From: Fibrisoma limi BUZ 3
GTDB taxonomy: Bacteria > Bacteroidota > Bacteroidia > Cytophagales > Spirosomataceae
Direction of reading: 5' to 3'
NCBI RefSeq assembly: GCF_000296815.2
Contig: NZ_CAIT01000004.1
Location: 186,001-250,000 of the forward strand
DNA: 64,000 nucleotides
The translations under genes were made by a program, and so were the position numbers. Each line of letters opens with the position of its first letter. The first letter of the stretch is position 1. This document shows positions 44,037 through 55,777 of the stretch, one piece after another. The notes under the pieces were generated by a model, which worked only from the letters and a program-made list of their open reading frames with translations, did not search any database and was not told the DNA's origin.

Positions 44037-45119
44037 TTACTGTTTCTGAAAGATCACGTCTGCAAAATACTCTTTGCAGTCGGTGAACCAGTTGGTTAAC
44101 GAAAATCCGGTTTCGTTCGCGAGTTGTTCGAGCTGAGTACGCGTAAACTTGCGCGAGATTTCGGTATGAATGACCTCGCCGTATGCGAACGGTACCGTTA
44201 TACTCAACGCCCGAATCTGTACCTGCTGTGCTTTCTGGCTGACCAGATAACTGCGGGCTTCCCCCGACTCGGGGTCGTAGGTTTCGTAGTGGTCAAATGC
44301 CGACAAGTCGAAGTTGGCGTCCAGTTCACGGTTAATGCGCCGAAGCAGATTCAGGTTGAACGCACGGGTCAGGCCCTGGCGGTCGTTGTAGGCCGCGTGG
44401 ATAACGGCCGGGTGTTTTTGCAGGTCAACGCCGGTTAGGACCAGGTCGCCCGGTAGCAGCCGACTGCTGATGCTCCGGTAAAAATGGATGGTCTCGCTGG
44501 TGGTGAAGTTGCCGATGTTGGAGCCCAGAAACAGTACGACCCGCCGGGTAGGTGCCCGGTGCGGGCGGGTTTCGCCGGACAGGCGTTCGAGAGCCGTAAA
44601 GTAGTCGCTGTGCTGCGGTCGTACAGTCATGGAAGGCCACTGTTGGCGGAGGGTACCGACAAGCCCTTCCAGGGCATCTTCCGAAATATCGACCGGAACG
44701 TAGCGAAACGCCACCTGGTTTTCCCACAGGTGTTCGAGCAGTAATTTTGTTTTCAGGCCGTCGCCAGCCCCCAGCTCGATCAGGTCCACTTCGTAGCCAC
44801 CCGCTGCAAACAGCCTCGCCAGATCCGATTTGTGCGTGTCCAGTATTTCATACTCCGACCGGGTCAGATAGTACTCGGGCGCGTGCATGATTTCCTGGAA
44901 AATCCGGCTTCCTTCGGCATCGTAAAAAAATCGGGAAGACAGCCGCTTGGGAGTTTTTGCCAGTCCGGTGCGTACTTCCTCTGCAAGGGGCGATGGGCTA
45001 AGGGCTTGGGGTGAAGGGCTTAGGGATAAAGAATCAACTCCAAGCCCCTTGCCCTCAGCCCTACGCTCTACGCCCCCAGCCCTTACCCCATCACCATTCG
45101 TATTCCCGTGAACTGCCAT
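44037..45119 (-). CDS. egtD: L-histidine N-alpha-methyltransferase (EgtD-type) with repeat-encoded N-terminus
   Basis: SAM-dependent methyltransferase of up to 360 residues that would trimethylate histidine to hercynine, first step of ergothioneine synthesis. Homology begins near residue 45 (LAEEVRTGLAKTPKRLSSRFFYD); SAM-binding ELGAGDGLKTKLLLEHL, RVVLFLGSNIGNFTTSE and TGVDLQKHPAVIHAAYND follow. The only in-frame ATG is at 45119, inside egtB; no ATG, GTG or TTG occurs between it and the conserved part. Residues about 11-45 are thus encoded by the intergenic palindrome and read as low-complexity sequence (SLSLSPSPQALSPSP). Confidence 0.85.
   Translation of the reverse strand: MAVHGNTNGDGVRAGGVERRAEGKGLGVDSLSLSPSPQALSPSPLAEEVRTGLAKTPKRLSSRFFYDAEGSRIFQEIMHAPEYYLTRSEYEILDTHKSDLARLFAAGGYEVDLIELGAGDGLKTKLLLEHLWENQVAFRYVPVDISEDALEGLVGTLRQQWPSMTVRPQHSDYFTALERLSGETRPHRAPTRRVVLFLGSNIGNFTTSETIHFYRSISSRLLPGDLVLTGVDLQKHPAVIHAAYNDRQGLTRAFNLNLLRRINRELDANFDLSAFDHYETYDPESGEARSYLVSQKAQQVQIRALSITVPFAYGEVIHTEISRKFTRTQLEQLANETGFSLTNWFTDCKEYFADVIFQKQ
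44986..45088. repeat. Long word-palindrome translated within egtD (GGGCTAAGGG words)
   Basis: Left words GGGCTAAGGGCTTGGGG and GAAGGGCTTAGGG (44990-45027) face right words CCAAGCCCCTTGCCC, CAGCCCTACGC and CCCCCAGCCCTTACCCC (45039-45088), its imperfect reverse complement. The egtB stop codon (TAA, 45083-45085 on the minus strand) is one of the words. The vocabulary resembles the elements at 2479-2540 and 14853-14934. Here the element is in frame with egtD. Confidence 0.8.
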
Positions 45120-46483: not shown

Positions 46484-48127
46484 ATGAAGAGAAGAGATTT
46501 CATGCAGTTGTCGGGCATGGGAATTGGCGCGCTGATGGGTGCATCGGTTCCGGTGTTGGGCAACGCCGTTCCGCTGGAGTACCTGCTGGAGCCACGGGCC
46601 GATGCCGCTACGAAAAAGAAGCTGGCTGACGTTGCCCTCAACGCGGCCAAGAGCAAAGGAGCTACGTACACCGATGTTCGGATTGGGCGATACCTGCAAC
46701 AATTTCTGTTCACGCGGGAAAACAAAGTGCAGAACATTGTGAATGCCGAATCGTATGGGGTGGGGATTCGGGTGCTGGCTAACGGAACCTGGGGGTTCTC
46801 AGCCACCAGCGACGTAACGCCCGACGGCATTGCCCGGGCCGCCGAAACCGCCGTGGCCATTGCCAAAGCCAACGCCAAGATCCAGAAAGAGCCCGTAACG
46901 CTGGCTCCGCAGAAGGGCGTAGGCGAAGTGACCTGGAAGACGCCGATCAAGAAAAATGCCTTCGAAATTCCGGTGCAGGAAAAGATCGACCTGCTGATGA
47001 AAGTCAACGGCGAGGCCATGAAAAACGGTGCGGCTTTCGTTACATCCAATCTCTTCTTTGTCAACGAACAAAAGTATTTTGCCTCAACCGACGGTTCATA
47101 CATCGACCAGGACGTTCATCGCATCTGGCCGACCTTCACCGTTACGGCCGTTGATCGGCAGGCCGGTGGGTTCAAAACCCGCGATGCGCTCAGCTCACCG
47201 ATGGGCATGGGCTACGAATACCTCGATGGGGTAGCCACGGAAAAGATTCCCGGACCCAATGGTTTAGTGGGCTACCGTAACTCCTACGATATGGTCGAAG
47301 ATGCGATCCTGGCCGCCAAACAGGCCAAGGAAAAGCTGACCGCCAAATCCGTACAGCCGGGCAAATATGACCTCGTGCTGGACCCTAACCACCTCGGCCT
47401 GACCATTCATGAATCGGTGGGTCACCCCACGGAGCTGGACCGCGTGCTGGGCTACGAAGCCAACTACGCCGGTACGTCGTTCGCGACGCTGGACAAGTGG
47501 AAAACCAAGAGCTTCAACTACGGCAGCAAACTGGTCAATATCGTTGCCGACAAAACCCAGCCTTACACCCTCGGTACGGTCGGCTACGACGACGAAGGCG
47601 TACCGTGCAAAGAATGGGATCTGATTAAGGACGGCGTTCTGGTCAATTACCAGGCTATTCGCGACCAGGCCAGCATCATCGGCGAGAAAGAATCGCACGG
47701 CTGCTGCTACGCCGACAACTGGAGTTCGGTGCAGTTCCAGCGGATGCCGAACGTATCGCTGCGTCCCGGTACGGAAAAGCGGAGCGTTGCCGACATGATC
47801 AAGGGCGTCGACAAAGGTATCTACATCATCGGTCGCGGTTCGTATTCCATTGATCAGCAGCGGTATAACTTCCAGTTTGGCGGGCAGTTGTTCTATGAAA
47901 TCAAGAATGGTGAAATTGCCGGGATGCTCGACGACGTAGCGTATCAGGCCAACACCCAGGAATTCTGGAACTCATGCGCTCAGCTCTGCGACAAAGACGA
48001 CTACCGCACCTTCGGGTCATTCTTCGACGGGAAAGGCCAGCCCTCGCAGGTCAGCGCCGTGTCGCACGGCTGCCCGACTACGCGCTTCAACGGTGTCAAT
48101 GTGATCAATACGGGACGGAAGATATAG
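46484..48127 (+). CDS. TldD-type metalloprotease with Tat signal, copy 1
   Basis: Protein of 547 residues from the ATG at 46484. A twin-arginine signal (MKRRDFMQLSGMGIGAL) predicts export. The zinc motif of the TldD family is HESVGHPTELDRVLG (His309, Glu310, His314). Other family stretches are AKSKGATYTDVRIGRY, NEQKYFASTDGSYIDQDVHRIWPTFTVTA and GQPSQVSAVSHGCPTTRFNGV. It pairs with the PmbA-type gene downstream. E. coli TldD-TldE matures peptides and is cytoplasmic; an exported form suggests a different substrate. A paralogous copy lies at 51854. Confidence 0.92.
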   Translation: MKRRDFMQLSGMGIGALMGASVPVLGNAVPLEYLLEPRADAATKKKLADVALNAAKSKGATYTDVRIGRYLQQFLFTRENKVQNIVNAESYGVGIRVLANGTWGFSATSDVTPDGIARAAETAVAIAKANAKIQKEPVTLAPQKGVGEVTWKTPIKKNAFEIPVQEKIDLLMKVNGEAMKNGAAFVTSNLFFVNEQKYFASTDGSYIDQDVHRIWPTFTVTAVDRQAGGFKTRDALSSPMGMGYEYLDGVATEKIPGPNGLVGYRNSYDMVEDAILAAKQAKEKLTAKSVQPGKYDLVLDPNHLGLTIHESVGHPTELDRVLGYEANYAGTSFATLDKWKTKSFNYGSKLVNIVADKTQPYTLGTVGYDDEGVPCKEWDLIKDGVLVNYQAIRDQASIIGEKESHGCCYADNWSSVQFQRMPNVSLRPGTEKRSVADMIKGVDKGIYIIGRGSYSIDQQRYNFQFGGQLFYEIKNGEIAGMLDDVAYQANTQEFWNSCAQLCDKDDYRTFGSFFDGKGQPSQVSAVSHGCPTTRFNGVNVINTGRKI

Positions 48128-48128
48128 C

Positions 48129-48207
48129 ATAGTTCGTAATTGGTGGTTTGTCGTCTGCGGTCCACAGCCGCCACTCAGCCACGAACTACGAACCAAAAAC
48201 TACAAAT
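48129..48207. repeat. Intergenic palindrome, tldD-pmbA copy 1 gap (GTAGTTCG/GTGG words)
   Basis: Left AGTTCGTAATTGGTGG (from 48131) and right CCACGAACTACGAACC (48179-48194) pair imperfectly; inner words CTGCGG and CCGCCA also pair. It fills the gap from just after the tldD stop to 7 bp before the next ATG. Confidence 0.75.
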
Positions 48208-48213
48208 TGACAG

Positions 48214-49530
48214 ATGGCAATCTTAAGCAAAGAAGAAGCTAAAAAGATAATCGATAAAGTACTGTCGTTCTCGAAGGCCGACGAGATGAGCGTTAACCTT
48301 GGCGGTGGGCGGACGGGCAACATCCGGTACGCCCGTAACTCGGTGTCGACCAGTGGCGAATCCAACAACCTGTCGCTGGGCATAACGGCCGTTTTCGGCA
48401 AGCGCTCCGGTACGGCCACCATCAACGAGTTCGACGATGCATCGCTGGAAAAAACGGTCCGTCGGGCGGAGGAGATCGCGCGGCTGGCCCCCGAAAACCC
48501 GGAGTATGTACCGGCGCTGGGGCCGCAGCAGTACGTCGATACCAAAGCGTACGTGGAAAGCACGGCTAAAATTGATCCCGCCTACCGGGCTCAGGCTGCC
48601 TTCGACAGCATTGATCTGTGCAACAAGAAGAACCTGACGGCTGCGGGCTATCTCGAAGACAGCGCCGGTTTTTCAGCCATCGGCAACAGCAAAGGCCTGT
48701 TCGGCTATAATCCGGCGACCTCCGTTGATTTCTCGATCACGGTCCGGACGGCCGACGGTACGGGTTCCGGCTACGCCATTCGCGATGTGAATGACGTATC
48801 GAAACTGAGCACGAAATCCGCCACGGACGTAGCGGTGCAGAAGGCGCTGGCGTCAACGTCGGCCAAGGCGCTGGAACCGGGTAAATACACCGTTATTCTG
48901 GAACCGGCCGCGTCGGTTGATCTGCTTCAGAACATGATGCGCAGCATCGACGCCCGCAACGCCGACGAGGGCCGTTCGTTCCTGAGCAAGAAAGGGGGTG
49001 GTACCCGCCTGGGCGAAAAGCTCTACGACGAGCGGGTGACGATCTACTCTGACCCAACCAACGCCGATATTCCGGGTTCACCGTACTCCGGCGACGGTCG
49101 GCCGCAGGAAAAAATCGTCTGGGTCGATAAGGGCGTCGTGAAAAACATGACGTATTCGCGCTTCTGGGCCGAAAAAAAAGGCGTGAAGGCCGTGCCGTCA
49201 CCGTCGGGTTTTATCATGGAAGGTGGCACGCAATCGCTGGCTGATCTGATCAAAAGCACCGAGAAAGGGATTCTGGTGACGCGGTTCTGGTATATCCGCT
49301 TCGTGGACCCACAGACGCTGTTGTACACCGGCCTGACCCGCGACGGAACGTTCTACATCGAGAACGGCCAGATCAAATTTCCGGTCAAGAATTTTCGTTT
49401 CAACGAGAGCCCGGTCATTATGCTCAACAACCTCGAAGCCATGGGACGGCCGGTACGTGTGAGCGGCAACATGGTTCCCCCGCTGAAGATTCGGGACTTT
49501 ACCTTCACGAGTCTGTCGGACGCTGTTTAG
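48214..49530 (+). CDS. PmbA/TldE-type protein, copy 1
   Basis: Protein of 438 residues, partner type of TldD. It has no signal peptide (MAILSKEEAKKIIDKVLSFSKADEMSV) and lacks the HExxxH motif, as expected for the non-catalytic TldE subunit. Family stretches: GNIRYARNSVSTSG, INEFDDASLEKTVRRAEEIARLAPENPEY, RNADEGRSFLSKKGGG, GTRLGEKLYDERVTIYSDP, and the C-terminal DGTFYIENGQIKFPVKNFRFNESPVIMLNNLEA. Its exported partner raises the question how the two meet; co-export as a passenger is one option. Confidence 0.9.
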   Translation: MAILSKEEAKKIIDKVLSFSKADEMSVNLGGGRTGNIRYARNSVSTSGESNNLSLGITAVFGKRSGTATINEFDDASLEKTVRRAEEIARLAPENPEYVPALGPQQYVDTKAYVESTAKIDPAYRAQAAFDSIDLCNKKNLTAAGYLEDSAGFSAIGNSKGLFGYNPATSVDFSITVRTADGTGSGYAIRDVNDVSKLSTKSATDVAVQKALASTSAKALEPGKYTVILEPAASVDLLQNMMRSIDARNADEGRSFLSKKGGGTRLGEKLYDERVTIYSDPTNADIPGSPYSGDGRPQEKIVWVDKGVVKNMTYSRFWAEKKGVKAVPSPSGFIMEGGTQSLADLIKSTEKGILVTRFWYIRFVDPQTLLYTGLTRDGTFYIENGQIKFPVKNFRFNESPVIMLNNLEAMGRPVRVSGNMVPPLKIRDFTFTSLSDAV

Positions 49531-49594
49531 GAATACAACCGCACCACCAGTTCAGGCTGGTGGTGCATTAATTTTTCAACAAACTTCTCACTCT

Positions 49595-51718
49595 ATGAAA
49601 GTTATGCTTATTCTGCTGCTATCGACCGTTTTCCTGTCGGCATTCGTGCTGATCGACAATCCGCCGGTTGCAGATAATCCCTTCTTTGAAGAATACGATA
49701 CGCCGTTTGGCGTACCGGCCTTCGACAAAATTAAGCCCGAGCACTTTGAGCCGGCGTTTGAAGAGGGAATGAAGCGGCATCAGGCCGAGATTACGGCCAT
49801 TACAAAGCAAACGGCTGCACCTACGTTTGCCAATACCATTGAGGCTATGGAAGCCAGTGGTGAACTGCTGAGTCGGGTCAGTACGGTTTTTTTCAACCTG
49901 AACAGCGCCAATACCAGCGACGCTATCCAGAAAATTGCGCAGACGATCGCGCCTAAACTGTCGAAGCACAACGACGACATATCGCTTGATCCGGCTTTGT
50001 TCCAACGCGTCAAGGCGGTGTACGACCAGCGGACCAAACTGAAACTGACTGGCGATCAGCAGCGGCTGCTCGAAAAAATGTACAAAAACTTTGTGCGCAG
50101 TGGTGCAGCTCTGTCGCCCGAGAAGCAGGAGCGTCTGCGTAAAATCAACGGCGAACTGTCGGTGCTGACCCTGAAGTTTGGTCAGAACGTACTGGCCGAG
50201 AATAATGCCTACACACTCGTCATCGACAAACAGGAGGATTTAAGCGGCCTGCCTGCTTCGGTAGTGGCCGCGGCTGCTGAGGAAGCTAAGAAACGAAAGC
50301 TGGCGGGCGATAAGTGGGTCTTTACCCTGCAGAACCCGAGCATTATGCCGTTCCTGCAATACGCCGACAACCGGGCGCTGCGGGAGCAGCTATTCAAGGC
50401 TTACCTCGAACGAGGCAATCACAACGATGCGCGCGACAACAAGAAAATAATGGCCGACATGGTGGCCTTGCGGGCCGAAAAAGCACGCTTGCTCGGTTAC
50501 GAAAACCACGCGGCTTATGTGTTAGAAGAAAGCATGGCCAGCACCCCCGCCAAAGCCCGCGAACTCCTGGACCGGCTCTGGACGGCTACCGTGCCCGTAA
50601 CGAAGCAGGAAGCTGCCGAACTGCAAAGTGTGATGGATCGCGCGGGAAAAAACGAAAAGCTGGCCGGCTGGGACTGGCGGTACTACGCCGAAAAACTGCG
50701 CAAAGAGAAATACGCCCTCGATGAGCAGGAATTACGGCCGTATCTGTCGCTGGACAACGTACGGGAGGGAATATTTACCCTCAGCAACCGGCTCTACGGC
50801 CTGCGTTTCGAAAAACTGACGAACGTACCGACCTACCACGAAGAAGTCGTGACGTACGAGGTCAAAGAAGCCGACGGACGGCACGTAGGTATTTTGTACA
50901 TGGATTTCTTTCCCCGGGCCAGCAAACGCGGTGGTGCCTGGATGACCAGCTACCGGCGGCAGGAGGTTAAGAACGGCAAGAAAGTAACGCCGGTGGTTTC
51001 GATCGTCTGCAACTTCCCCCGACCCGCTGGCAATGCCCCCGCGCTGCTTAATCTGGAGGAGACCAGTACGTTCTTCCACGAGTTCGGCCACGCTTTGCAC
51101 GGTCTGCTGTCGAATGTCCGTTACAGCAGCCAATCGGGTACGGCTGTTCCCCGCGACTTCGTCGAGTTGCCGTCGCAGATCATGGAGAACTGGGCCGAGG
51201 AGCCTGAAATGCTGAAGCTCTACGCCAAGCATTATCAGACCGGCGAGGTGATTCCCGACGCGCTCATCGAAAAAGTAAAGAAAAGCAGCCTGTTCAATCA
51301 GGGTTTTGCAACGACCGAATACCTGGCCGCTTCGTTGCTGGATATGGATTACCACACGCTTGCACCGGGTCAAGCACCGAAGGACGTACTGGCGTTTGAA
51401 AAGCAATCGATGGATAAAATTGGCCTGATTGAGCAGATTCCGCCCCGCTACCGGAGTACGTACTTCCAGCATATCTTCTCGGGAGGGTACTCGGCCGGAT
51501 ACTACAGCTACATCTGGTCGGCGGTGCTTGATGCCGATGCGTTCGAGGTGTTCAAGCAGAAAGGGCTTTTCGATCAGAAGTCGGCCTTATCGTTCCGGAA
51601 AAATGTGCTGGAGCGGGGCGGCACCGACGAGCCGATGAAGCTGTACCAGAATTTCCGCGGTGCCGAGCCTGACATCCGGCCGTTGCTTCGGCGGAGAGGG
51701 CTGGATAAGGCGTTGTAG
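49595..51718 (+). CDS. M3-family metallopeptidase (peptidyl-dipeptidase Dcp-like), exported
   Basis: Zinc peptidase of 707 residues with signal sequence (MKVMLILLLSTVFLSAFVL), so periplasmic or membrane-associated. N-terminal part NPFFEEYDTPFGVPAFDKIKPEHF is typical of Dcp. The active site is TSTFFHEFGHALHGLLS, HEFGH at 495-499, followed by DFVELPSQIMENWA with the third zinc ligand Glu, and the YRSTYFQHIFSGGYSAGYYSY substrate-binding segment. It cleaves dipeptides from short peptides. It sits between two tldD-pmbA pairs, which suggests a shared role in peptide processing. Confidence 0.94.
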   Translation: MKVMLILLLSTVFLSAFVLIDNPPVADNPFFEEYDTPFGVPAFDKIKPEHFEPAFEEGMKRHQAEITAITKQTAAPTFANTIEAMEASGELLSRVSTVFFNLNSANTSDAIQKIAQTIAPKLSKHNDDISLDPALFQRVKAVYDQRTKLKLTGDQQRLLEKMYKNFVRSGAALSPEKQERLRKINGELSVLTLKFGQNVLAENNAYTLVIDKQEDLSGLPASVVAAAAEEAKKRKLAGDKWVFTLQNPSIMPFLQYADNRALREQLFKAYLERGNHNDARDNKKIMADMVALRAEKARLLGYENHAAYVLEESMASTPAKARELLDRLWTATVPVTKQEAAELQSVMDRAGKNEKLAGWDWRYYAEKLRKEKYALDEQELRPYLSLDNVREGIFTLSNRLYGLRFEKLTNVPTYHEEVVTYEVKEADGRHVGILYMDFFPRASKRGGAWMTSYRRQEVKNGKKVTPVVSIVCNFPRPAGNAPALLNLEETSTFFHEFGHALHGLLSNVRYSSQSGTAVPRDFVELPSQIMENWAEEPEMLKLYAKHYQTGEVIPDALIEKVKKSSLFNQGFATTEYLAASLLDMDYHTLAPGQAPKDVLAFEKQSMDKIGLIEQIPPRYRSTYFQHIFSGGYSAGYYSYIWSAVLDADAFEVFKQKGLFDQKSALSFRKNVLERGGTDEPMKLYQNFRGAEPDIRPLLRRRGLDKAL

Positions 51719-51780
51719 TTCGTGGTTTGTAGTTCGTAGTTGCGCTGCTCGATCGAACTACGACCACAAACTACAAACCA
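51714..51780. repeat. Intergenic palindrome, dcp-tldD copy 2 gap (GTAGTTCG/GTGGTTTG words)
   Basis: Left words TTGTAGTTCGTGGTTTG and TAGTTCGTAGTTGC (51714-51741) face right words CGAACTACGACCACAAACTACAAACCA (51754-51780), its imperfect reverse complement. The M3 peptidase stop codon TAG is one of the words. The downstream frame is open through the element and contains an ATG at 51740 within it. Confidence 0.8.
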
Positions 51781-51853
51781 TGCGTGCAACGCCGACACAC
51801 CGCTTTACATCATTTATCAAACGAATCTCCAACCTAAAACCACAATACAATCC

Positions 51854-53494
51854 TTGAATCGTCGCGATTTTCTTCAATTAACGGGTATGGGTGCCGGGGC
51901 TGTGATGCTTCCCAACCTGTCGGCCTGGGGCCGTCCCGTTGCGCCTGAAGCCTTACTGGAGCCGGGTATAGACGTAGCCGTCAAGAAGCGCCTGGCTGAT
52001 GCCGCGCTGAATGCGGCAAAATCGAAAGGAGCCTCCTATGCGGATGTGCGGATTGGTCGGTACCTACGGCAGTTTGTCATTACGCGCGAAGACAAAGTGC
52101 AGAACATTGTCAATACCGAGTCATTCGGGGTGGGGGTACGGGTTATCGCGGATGGATGCTGGGGCTTTGCGGCCGTGGTTGACGCCAAAAACGAGAACGA
52201 TACCGCCAAAGCCGCTGAGAACGCCGTGGCCATTGCCAAAGCCAATGCTAAGCTGATGAAGGAGCCGGTAAAACTGGCCCCACAGAAAGGCTTTGGGGAG
52301 GTAAGCTGGCAGACGCCAATCAAAAAGAATGCGTTTGAGGTGCCGATCAAAGAAAAGGCCGACCTGCTGCTTGGGGTGAACGCTGCCGCCATGAAAAACG
52401 GAGCCAACTACGTAAACTCCGTGCTGTTCATGGTCAACGAGCAGAAGTATTTTGCCTCGACCGACGGCTCGTACATCGACCAGGACGTTCACCGCATCTG
52501 GCCGACCTTCACTGTTACAGCCATCGACCCGAAGTCCGGCAAGTTTGAAACCCGCGACTCGCTGAGTGCGCCGGTAGGCATGAGCTACGAGTATCTGCAG
52601 GCGAACCCTTCCGACAAGGTGACCGGCATCACGACCCGCTACAACAAGGGGTACGATATGCTGGAGGACGTAGTGGCTGCGGCTAAACAGGCTAAACAGA
52701 AGCTAACGGCCAAATCGGTCGAAGCCGGGAAGTACGACCTGATTCTCGACCCTTCGCACCTCTGGCTGACCATTCACGAGTCGGTTGGGCACCCGCTCGA
52801 ACTGGACCGCGTATTGGGCTACGAAGCCAATTTTGCCGGTACGTCCTTCGCCACGCTGGATAAGTGGCAGTCGAAAAATTTCAACTACGGCAGTAACATC
52901 GTAAATCTCTTCGCCGACAAAACGCAGGTGGGTTCGCTGGGCGCCGTTGGCTGGGACGATGAGGGCGTGAAAACTAAAAAATGGGATCTGGTTAAGGACG
53001 GTACGTTGGTCAATTACCAGGCCATTCGGGATCAGGTACACATCATCGGCGAAGACGAATCGCAGGGATGTTGCTATGCCGATAACTGGGGATCAGTACA
53101 GTTCCAACGGATGGCGAACGTATCGCTGGCGGCCGGTAAGCAACCCCTCTCGGTCGACCAACTGATCAAGGACGTCAAGAAAGGTATCTACATCATCGGC
53201 GACGGTTCGTTTTCGATTGACCAGCAGCGCTACAACTTCCAGTTTGGCGGGCAGTTGTTCTACGAGATCAAGGACGGTAAGATTGCCGGGATGCTCAAGG
53301 ACGTAGCCTATCAGTCGAACACGCAGGAGTTCTGGAACTCCTGCACCCAGATCTGCGATGATCGCGACTATCGGTTAGGCGGCTCGTTTTTCGATGGGAA
53401 AGGCCAGCCCGGTCAGGTCAGCGCCGTATCGCACGGCAGCTCCACGGCTCGTTTCAACGGCGTGAATGTGATTAATACCGCAAGGAAGATATAG
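51854..53494 (+). CDS. TldD-type metalloprotease with Tat signal, copy 2
   Basis: Protein of 546 residues, closely similar to copy 1 over its whole length. The TTG at 51854 was taken as start because the Tat signal (NRRDFLQLTGMGAGAVML) follows at once, as in copy 1; the in-frame ATG at 51740 lies inside the palindrome and would bury the signal behind 38 residues. The zinc motif is HESVGHPLELDRVLG (His308 to His313). NEQKYFASTDGSYIDQDVHR and SIDQQRYNFQFGGQLFYEIK are shared with copy 1. It pairs with PmbA copy 2. Confidence 0.9.
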   Translation: MNRRDFLQLTGMGAGAVMLPNLSAWGRPVAPEALLEPGIDVAVKKRLADAALNAAKSKGASYADVRIGRYLRQFVITREDKVQNIVNTESFGVGVRVIADGCWGFAAVVDAKNENDTAKAAENAVAIAKANAKLMKEPVKLAPQKGFGEVSWQTPIKKNAFEVPIKEKADLLLGVNAAAMKNGANYVNSVLFMVNEQKYFASTDGSYIDQDVHRIWPTFTVTAIDPKSGKFETRDSLSAPVGMSYEYLQANPSDKVTGITTRYNKGYDMLEDVVAAAKQAKQKLTAKSVEAGKYDLILDPSHLWLTIHESVGHPLELDRVLGYEANFAGTSFATLDKWQSKNFNYGSNIVNLFADKTQVGSLGAVGWDDEGVKTKKWDLVKDGTLVNYQAIRDQVHIIGEDESQGCCYADNWGSVQFQRMANVSLAAGKQPLSVDQLIKDVKKGIYIIGDGSFSIDQQRYNFQFGGQLFYEIKDGKIAGMLKDVAYQSNTQEFWNSCTQICDDRDYRLGGSFFDGKGQPGQVSAVSHGSSTARFNGVNVINTARKI

Positions 53495-53497
53495 CAT

Positions 53498-53570
53498 CAG
53501 TTTTCAGTTGGTTAATTTTCGGTAGCTTCTGCTTTAATGCCTGATTTAGGCACTGGTAACCTGAAAACTG
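53498..53570. repeat. Intergenic palindrome, tldD-pmbA copy 2 gap (CAGTTTTCAG)
   Basis: CAGTTTTCAG (53498-53507) and CTGAAAACTG (53561-53570) pair perfectly. GGTTA/TAACC continue the stem and GCCTGATTTAGGC (53539-53551) forms an inner hairpin. It starts 4 bp after the tldD stop. The words differ entirely from those at the matching position in copy 1 of the gene pair. Confidence 0.75.
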
Positions 53571-53594
53571 TGAACTAAATACCATAACCCGTTT

Positions 53595-54944
53595 ATGTCC
53601 ATCATACTCACTGAGGCAGAAGCAAAGGCGCTGCTGCAAAAAGTCCTGAGCTATTCCAAGGCGGACGAATGCGAGGTGAACCTGCTCGGCGAAGAGCGGG
53701 GGAACCTGCGCTACGCCCGTAACGAAGTATCAACGAGTGGTTCGCTCATCAATCAGAACCTGCAGGTGCAGTCGGCGTTTGGTAAAAAAGTCGGCGTGGC
53801 GACCATTGATGAATTCGACGATGCTTCGCTAGAAAAGGTAGTGCGTCGGTCGGAAGAACTGGCGCGCCTGGCTCCCGAAAATCCCGAATACGTTGGCATG
53901 CTTGGCCCACAGCAATACCTGAAATCAAACGGATTCTTTGAATCAACGGCTAAAGTTGATCCGGCAGCCCGGGCGGAAGCGGTGGCCAAAAGCCTGCAGC
54001 TAACCCGGGAGAGCGGCAGTAATGCCAAACTGACGGCGGCCGGCTTTCTGGACGACCGGCGGGGCTACACGGCCATGATGAATTCTAAAGGGCTGTTCGC
54101 GTATTACCCCGATACGAACGTCAACTTCTCGCTGACCGTCCGCACTGAAGACGGAAAAGGGTCGGGTTACGTAACGCGGGGTTACAGCGATTTTGCCAAA
54201 CTGGATACGGCCGACGCTACCAAAGTAGCCATTCAGAAGTGTGTCGGGTCGGTAGGCGCGCGGGCGCTGGAGCCGGGTAAATACACCGTCATTCTGGAGC
54301 CAACGGCCGGAGCCGTACTGCTCGAAAACATCTTCTTCAGCATGGACGCCCGGAGCGCCGACGAAGGCCGGTCGTTCCTGAGCAAGCCGGGCGGGAAAAC
54401 CAAATTAGGTGAAAAGATCGTGGACGAACGCGTAACGATCTATTCCGATCCGACGAACCCCGACTTGCCGGCTTCACCCTGGTCGGGCGATGGTCGGCCG
54501 CAGGAAAAGGTGAACTGGATTGATAAAGGCGTCGTTAAAAATCTGGCGTATTCGCGTTTCTGGGCGCAGAAGAAGGGCGTGAAAGCCGTCCCCTTTCCCA
54601 ACAACGTAATCATGGCCGGGGGAACGCAATCGCTGGACGAGATGATCAAAAGCACCCAGCGGGGTATTCTTGTGACCAAGCTCTGGTACATCCGCTCCGT
54701 TGACCCGCAGACGCTGCTCCTGACCGGTCTGACCCGCGACGGAACGTTCTACATCGAGAACGGCCAGATTAAGTACCCGGTCAAGAACTTCCGCTTCAAC
54801 GAAAGCCCGGTCATCATGCTTAACAACCTCGAAGCGCTGGGTAAGCCGGAGCGGGTGGTGAGCACCGAGTCGGATAATAACTACCTGATTCCGCCGATGA
54901 AGATTCGGGAGTTTACGTTCACGAGTCTGTCGGATGCGGTGTAA
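53595..54944 (+). CDS. PmbA/TldE-type protein, copy 2
   Basis: Protein of 449 residues, paralogue of 48214-49530, again without signal peptide or zinc motif. Shared stretches include RYARNEVSTSGS, DEFDDASLEKVVRRSEELARLAPENPEY, GARALEPGKYTVILEP, SADEGRSFLSKPGGKTKLGEKI and DGTFYIENGQIKYPVKNFRFNESPVIMLNNLEA. The C-terminus has an extra loop (RVVSTESDNNYLIPPMKIREF). With its tldD partner it forms the second complete pair; the duplication includes gene order and spacing but not the intergenic sequence. Confidence 0.9.
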   Translation: MSIILTEAEAKALLQKVLSYSKADECEVNLLGEERGNLRYARNEVSTSGSLINQNLQVQSAFGKKVGVATIDEFDDASLEKVVRRSEELARLAPENPEYVGMLGPQQYLKSNGFFESTAKVDPAARAEAVAKSLQLTRESGSNAKLTAAGFLDDRRGYTAMMNSKGLFAYYPDTNVNFSLTVRTEDGKGSGYVTRGYSDFAKLDTADATKVAIQKCVGSVGARALEPGKYTVILEPTAGAVLLENIFFSMDARSADEGRSFLSKPGGKTKLGEKIVDERVTIYSDPTNPDLPASPWSGDGRPQEKVNWIDKGVVKNLAYSRFWAQKKGVKAVPFPNNVIMAGGTQSLDEMIKSTQRGILVTKLWYIRSVDPQTLLLTGLTRDGTFYIENGQIKYPVKNFRFNESPVIMLNNLEALGKPERVVSTESDNNYLIPPMKIREFTFTSLSDAV

Positions 54945-54956
54945 ACAATAAGTCTT

Positions 54957-55026
54957 TAGTTGACAATCGTTAGTCATTTATGTTAGATAGTATTCCAATC
55001 AATCGGTGACTTTTGACTGTCAACTA
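54957..55026. repeat. Intergenic palindrome, pmbA copy 2-DUF4159 gap (TAGTTGACA words)
   Basis: Twenty-nt arms at 54957-54976 and 55007-55026 pair at 16 of 20 positions (outer TAGTTGACA perfect), around a 30-nt centre. It fills the gap to the ATG at 55038. Confidence 0.78.
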
Positions 55027-55037
55027 CTGACCGTATT

Positions 55038-55658: not shown

Positions 55659-55670
55659 ATACAAACCTGA

Positions 55671-55758
55671 AACGCAGAGAGGCAGAGAAAAACGCAGAGG
55701 TTGCAGAGTAACTCAATAAACTCTGTGTTCTCTGCGTTTCCCTCTGCTCCTCTGCGTT
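55671..55758. repeat. Intergenic palindrome, DUF4159-moxR gap (ACGCAGAG words)
   Basis: Arms of 39 nt at 55671-55709 and 55720-55758 pair at 31 of 39 positions with a 10-nt loop. Each arm consists of reiterated ACGCAGAG, GGCAGAG and TGCAGAGT words; the mismatches fall at matching spots between words. It fills nearly the entire gap between the two genes. Confidence 0.88.
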
Positions 55759-55777
55759 AAACAAACGTAAACTTGAT

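Follow-up and report, generated by a model that had tools for sequence, protein, structure and literature searches.

The tldD–pmbA locus

The window, a stretch of 64,000 nucleotides (nt) from Fibrisoma limi BUZ 3 (contig NZ_CAIT01000004.1, positions 186,001 to 250,000), carries the gene pair tldD–pmbA twice, with an M3 peptidase gene between the copies and a DUF4159 gene beyond them. The order, strand and coordinates reported for the five genes by a first-pass annotation, made from the sequence alone, proved correct (Table 1). The subject of this report is what lies between the genes. Each of the five gaps between tldD1 and the DUF4159 gene is more palindromic than its dinucleotide shuffles (p 0.0025 to 0.015), and the two tldD–pmbA spacers are a good example of unusually fast palindrome turnover. 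Coordinates are those of the window; numbers less than 1 or greater than 64000 denote sites on the same contig outside it (G000:C11 position minus 186000).

Table 1 Genes and intergenic gaps at the tldD–pmbA locus, with inverted-repeat scores and p values from 400 dinucleotide shuffles. Tat, twin-arginine translocation. The last row refers to the sister genome, G001.
Feature	Position	Strand	Remarks
tldD1, TldD copy 1 with Tat signal	46484..48127	+	
tldD1–pmbA1 spacer	48128..48213		imperfect palindrome, AGTTCGT/GTGGTTTGT words; score 10.0, p = 0.0075
pmbA1 (TldE-like)	48214..49530	+	no signal peptide seen
pmbA1–M3 gap	49531..49594		GCACCACCAG hairpin, p = 0.0025
M3 peptidase, Dcp-like	49595..51718	+	closest NCBIfam model Dcp
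M3–tldD2 gap	51719..51853		palindrome, score 13.0, p = 0.0025
tldD2, TldD copy 2 with Tat signal	51854..53494	+	TTG start
tldD2–pmbA2 spacer	53495..53594		CAGTTTTCAG palindrome; score 10.0, p = 0.0125
pmbA2 (TldE-like)	53595..54944	+	no signal peptide seen
pmbA2–DUF4159 gap	54945..55037		imperfect palindrome, TAGTTGACAATC arms, p = 0.015
Gap 3' of DUF4159 gene	55659..55777		CGCAGAG-word palindrome, score 19.0, p = 0.0025
PIN-family putative toxin gene and small gene, G001 tldD2–pmbA2 spacer	L032 2010-2631	minus	

The gene pair and its duplication are old and ordinary. Protein identity between the window copies is 71.7% for TldD and 68.0% for PmbA (72% and 69% in DNA), each of the four proteins has three PmbA_TldD Pfam domains above cut-off, and the conserved TldD motif is present in both copies as annotated (HESVGHPTELDRVLG and HESVGHPLELDRVLG). 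A TldD1 relative was found in 35 of 79 genomes, its own included. Around TldD1-like genes, 40 stretches were fetched (41 with the window), and the order tldD1-pmbA1-tldD2-pmbA2 on one strand recurs in 26 of the 40. A single branch separates copy 1 from copy 2 both in the TldD tree (76 rows; support 82/96) and in the PmbA tree (70 rows; support 100/99); families f1, f5 and f19 are represented on either side in both. The duplication is therefore as old as the first-pass annotation held, and separate acquisition of the two pairs, which was to have counted against it, is not what the trees show. A tandem duplication of the pair would have preceded the diversification of the family, with both copies retained. 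Additional later copies also occur, for example in L033, L046, L053, L056, L061 and L068. In L033 and L046 the third pair joins a copy-2-type tldD to a copy-1-type pmbA, as if the partners could be mixed. Only 2 of the 41 stretches, those of the window and of its sister genome, have the M3 gene between the pairs.

Palindromes in the window and at the same places in relatives

Both tldD–pmbA spacers had been described as palindromic and mutually unrelated, and both statements hold; the palindromes exceed chance modestly. The words AGTTCGTAG and TTTGTAG of the M3–tldD2 gap also occur in the tldD1–pmbA1 spacer, a link missed earlier. Comparison with the sister genome reveals change of several kinds. 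In the tldD1–pmbA1 spacer the words are kept and letters changed, and in the CGCAGAG-word palindrome the words are kept and the arms altered. The pmbA1–M3 hairpin has identical arms and an altered 6-nt loop. In the M3–tldD2 palindrome the central 20 nt, GTTGCGCTGCTCGATCGAAC, are the exact reverse complement of those in the sister, and both arms differ. Rfam gave nothing at gathering scores between 45000 and 56500, and no tRNA genes were found within the window. Upstream, the start (45011-45119) of the reverse-strand gene 44037-45119 translates to SLSLSPSPQALSPSPL, which gives the impression that a short-word repeat runs across the annotated start.

In relatives, 71 tldD–pmbA spacers could be compared, all in plus orientation (pairs on the minus strand, as in L067, and pairs truncated at the end of a contig were dropped). 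Thirty-one are at most 45 nt long (14 of 38 tldD1-type and 17 of 33 tldD2-type), 13 score at least 13, 6 score 10 to 13, and 21 are longer with no strong repeat; the words of the spacer palindromes vary from genome to genome. In the sister genome the tldD2–pmbA2 spacer is 651 nt long and holds a PIN-domain gene, with a putative toxin model above cut-off, preceded by a small gene. In a second pair of sister genomes, G038 and G003, this spacer holds two different palindromes with unalignable arms (scores 13.5 and 12.0, p 0.005 and 0.010).

These findings do not support the earlier proposal that the two window spacers were once homologous and diverged after the duplication. A single ancestral palindromic spacer, duplicated with the genes, would account for a palindrome at the same place in each pair, but it is very improbable given the frequency of short, hairpin-free spacers at both places in relatives and a duplication that predates the family while the spacers already differ between sister species. 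The two window spacers look like later, fairly recent and separate occupants rather than remnants of one ancestor, because palindromes are gained, lost, replaced and rewritten in such gaps.

Distribution of palindromes along two genomes

Gaps of at least 30 nt between genes from a codon-based caller were surveyed, with a score of at least 13 as the mark of a strong palindrome. Over 430 kb of the window's genome (G000), 64 of 244 gaps were palindromic, compared with an average of 0.8 in ten rounds of dinucleotide shuffles. By gene orientation, palindromes occupy 22 of 36 convergent gaps, 19 of 87 ++ gaps, 18 of 76 -- gaps and 5 of 45 divergent ones, and the arm starts a median of 11 nt (++) or 14.5 nt (--) after the upstream stop codon. 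Over 200 kb of G038, 34 of 130 gaps were palindromic (convergent 18/26, ++ 11/41, -- 5/34, divergent 0/29). Both genomes thus show the placement expected of intrinsic terminators, a hairpin after the gene end. A crude sort of the 64 palindromes by word put 26 in named word classes and 38 elsewhere, so that word families are a minority.

Turnover between sister species with pairing kept

The spacers had also been proposed to turn over more quickly than the sequence on either side without losing their palindromic form. Such turnover was found genome-wide in two pairs of sister genomes, as well as in the tldD2–pmbA2 spacer of G038 and G003. Synteny holds between the window's genome and its sister (G001), and identity in most of the aligned blocks is 83 to 91%. 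Among 166 mapped gaps, 34 score at least 13 in both genomes, 12 in the window's genome only, 15 in the sister only and 105 in neither; median arm identity is 0.62, against 0.79 in the 76 gaps that score below 10 in both. In the case of G038 and G003, whose flanks are 92.4% identical, 114 gaps were mapped (25 palindromic in both, 6 and 7 on one side, 76 in neither), and arm identity is 0.71 against 0.93 in 57 plain gaps. Palindromes are thus gained and lost between close species, and the arms of those that persist diverge faster than plain gaps.

If the arms evolved separately, mismatch within a genome should come near the divergence between genomes. It does not: within a genome, 1596 of 1725 aligned arm positions are paired in the 70 co-directional palindromes, and 844 of 881 in the 37 convergent ones, or 93-96%, a measure that selection at a score of at least 13 inflates. 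Pairing within a genome despite divergence between genomes is what template switching would produce. Individual sites provide examples. At 147867 both arms of the sister are extended outward by matching letters, at -163495 each of its arms has an extra 7-nt word, and at 113205 the arms are perfect in either genome with only the core alike. Outright replacement occurs as well. One gap of the second pair, A38 128835 (A38 coordinates are counted from G038:C1:3405101), holds GAGTGAAAGAGCGAAAG in one genome and TAATGAATAATGGATAATGG in the other, two different palindromes. Palindromes at the same site with unalignable arms number 14 of 42 and 10 of 32 in the two pairs, totals that include some false alarms (short arms that are nearly the same at -120189, 134394 and 139071) and one palindrome compared with an 887-nt loop (-101330), so that single examples rather than these counts carry the argument. 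Outside the window, an element with 32-bp arms, ACCCCAAACCCCTGAAGGGGCTTAGCGCTGC, is present at 121567 and -81271 and absent from the same gap of the sister; the arms at -101330 are similar.

Loops can also change orientation. In a first test, 10 of 22 loops were alignable, 6 in the same orientation and 4 inverted; a stricter test of the window's genome and its sister left 6 same and 3 inverted (-116836, 51719 and 86374). The inversion at 51719, in the M3–tldD2 gap, is clean.

RNA selection or DNA copying

The palindromes could alternatively be transcription terminators or mRNA 3'-end hairpins under selection for RNA structure, where compensatory mutation restores pairing while the letters drift. 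This is possible, if rather unlikely as the explanation of the whole pattern. The position just past stop codons and the excess in convergent over divergent gaps in both genomes speak for it, and some hairpins are kept as ordinary terminators are, for example GCCCGTCAGGTATCTGGCGGGC at 69905 (5.9 kb past the window). Selection on RNA should favor G·U pairs. Read on the transcribed strand, the arm mismatches of co-directional palindromes comprise 33 G-T and 45 A-C. In the mapped sets they number 30 against 43 and 8 against 22 (38 and 65 together), counts in which homologous palindromes of both genomes are included, so that events are fewer. These counts, made without an RNA positive control, show no G·U excess among arm mismatches, an argument against selection on RNA as the sole cause. 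Inverted loops, and insertions that match in two arms, are DNA events, and many orthologous tldD–pmbA spacers, such as the 31 of at most 45 nt, have no hairpin.

Word families and REPIN-like elements

Two word patterns are specific to lineages. Palindromes with GGAGGAAAGG number 11 in the window's genome, 20 in its sister, 12 in G003, 8 in G038 and 1 in G009; the remaining 74 of the 79 genomes have none. GTTTGTRGTT palindromes number 27 in the window's genome, 52 in its sister, 8 in G005 and 1-2 in three others, with none in 73 of 79; a reversed-pattern control gave one match in each of three genomes. A scan beyond the family with GTTTGTRGTTN{5,35}AACYACAAAC matched at least 113 stretches. We do not claim the same word palindromes across phyla; among the 24 matches read, the cyanobacterial and Desulfobacterota ones were mostly one unit framing other sequence.

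Such lineage specificity would fit mobile elements of the REP/REPIN type, spread by RAYT transposases or another enzyme, with the differences between genomes being independent insertions. A RAYT-like Y1_Tnp gene (L092, G000:C6 at about 748 kb) indeed lies between inverted pairs of its own, GGCCAAGCTCCCGCTTGGCC and GCCAAGCTCCNGCTTGGC. The GCCAAGC family of this locus has fixed stems and also forms the palindrome at 86374 (22.4 kb past the window), which has its loop in the opposite orientation in the sister; family and gene together look like a REPIN with its RAYT. We nevertheless regard mobility of this type as an improbable source of the palindromes at large. Y1_Tnp has only two weak matches in the window's genome, the GCCAAGC family has just 7 pattern matches there, and none of four word strings sought at the RAYT-like locus was present. 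REP/REPIN families consist of many near-identical copies with fixed stems, whereas word palindromes have arms that differ among copies, and one-sided sites examined by eye showed no clean target duplication. The word palindromes are not explained by the REPIN-like family.

Export signals and metal ligands of TldD

The first-pass annotation proposed specialization in peptide processing after the duplication, which may apply; what was found is that TldD is conserved in both lineages and bears an export signal in each. Every one of the 76 TldD rows shows RRx and then a hydrophobic residue within the first 40 residues, TIGR01409 (Tat signal) scores above cut-off in both window TldDs, and TatC is encoded in the genome. 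In PmbA, a twin-arginine motif or hydrophobic stretch (by our own cut-off) was found in 0 of 70 rows. From these motifs, the folded TldD–PmbA heterodimer may leave through Tat on the signal of TldD, with PmbA hitchhiking. For work on TldD/PmbA, a signalled TldD with an unsignalled partner points to a heterodimer exported by hitchhiking.

The HExxxH motif, found in TldD only, is present in both window TldDs, and H309 and H314 are kept in 76 of 76 rows. The E. coli system is similar in having an HExxxH TldD with a TldE/PmbA partner gene, and the third metal ligand of its TldD is Cys454 (PMC5810440). The window system differs in the Tat signal of its TldDs, in the tandem doubling and in having no Cys at the place of Cys454, where the alignment puts the loop FFDGKGQ in both TldDs. 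Of the TldD cysteines, C407 and C498 are kept in 76 of 76 rows and C502 in 75. Candidates for the third metal ligand here are C498, C502 and H528. An AlphaFold2 model of TldD1, for which TldD2 was the sole additional sequence in the alignment, had a mean predicted local distance difference test (pLDDT) score of 29 and was left unused.

Palindrome turnover as a probable DNA-level process

The observations above are probably best explained by copying and flipping of arms at the DNA level, together with gain and loss of lineage-specific palindromes. Gaps behind genes would serve as settling places for hairpin-forming palindromes, mostly a few bases past the stop codon. There, one arm would template the other, through template switching in replication or recombination between the arms. 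Changes, insertions and losses would therefore show in both arms, and the loop could flip. Palindromes would also be gained, lost and replaced, in part from lineage-specific families with common short words. We infer this process, as well as the route by which new palindromes arrive; symmetric rewriting as such can be explained by known mechanisms. More tentatively, and as a suggestion we would not yet call likely, many gene 3' ends in the family may be palindrome slots in which the form is inherited and the sequence is not. Sister species would then carry unrelated palindromes of lineage-specific words, with arms copied at the DNA level and slots refilled by some spreading process.

Several points weigh against arm copying and flipping. 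Flips are few: 51719 is the only clean one, the loop at -116836 is itself quasi-palindromic, -7056 is weak, 86374 belongs to the REPIN-like family, and in G038 and G003 none of 3 loops is inverted, all 3 being in the same orientation. The preference for convergent gaps fits terminators, some simple terminators are well conserved, and selection on hairpins is possible. The two tldD–pmbA spacers of the window, at 10.0, are medium palindromes below the survey threshold of 13, and the measure of arm pairing is inflated as noted. An impression of tandem words inside arms found no support, with a significant internal direct repeat in 3 of 38 arms and in 3 of 108 control segments.

Several known systems share features with what is described here. 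Homogenization of short inverted repeats by template switching (PMC8604942, PMC8794818) likewise makes arms alike and yields new perfect stems and inverted spacers. The cases described there are in yeast coding and RNA genes, whereas here the process would operate in a large share of the gaps between genes of one bacterial genus and rewrite whole arms; conserved short repeats in proteobacteria were also found by the authors of PMC8604942. Complementary arms evolve in concert in the mitochondrial palindromes of Nematomorpha as well (PMC6649704), but those lie inside animal mitochondrial genes and not in bacterial gaps. The GGGAATC heptamers of Xanthomonas (PMC4692102) are similarly short intergenic words, often in inverted pairs; closely related species differ in the length and sequence of these repeats but preserve how they are arranged. 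They consist of one G-rich word in tandem copies, unlike the several words and many unique palindromes found here, for which a general tandem structure was not shown. TAACTGA heptamers of Beggiatoaceae, Cyanobacteria and five Bacteroidetes (PMC4679880) share the patchy distribution among lineages, some of them Bacteroidota, but are direct repeats near start codons rather than inverted repeats past stop codons. REP/REPIN elements with RAYTs (PMC3733652) are also dispersed intergenic palindromes, and one small family here adjoins a RAYT-like gene; the word palindromes differ in that their arms are variable, and we found nothing that links them to a transposase. A literature search, which covered subscription journals in part, found no description of such palindromes in Spirosoma relatives.

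When the two arms of a hairpin change in compensation, a selected RNA structure is usually taken as proven. In the genomes compared here the arms remain paired, yet no G·U signature is seen, a loop has been flipped, and entire arms have been replaced at a few per cent of divergence. If DNA-level copying is indeed the cause, covariation in such genomes can come from a DNA copying process alone. With two species pairs and strain-level genomes, the rates at which palindromes are gained, lost, rewritten and flipped are directly measurable.

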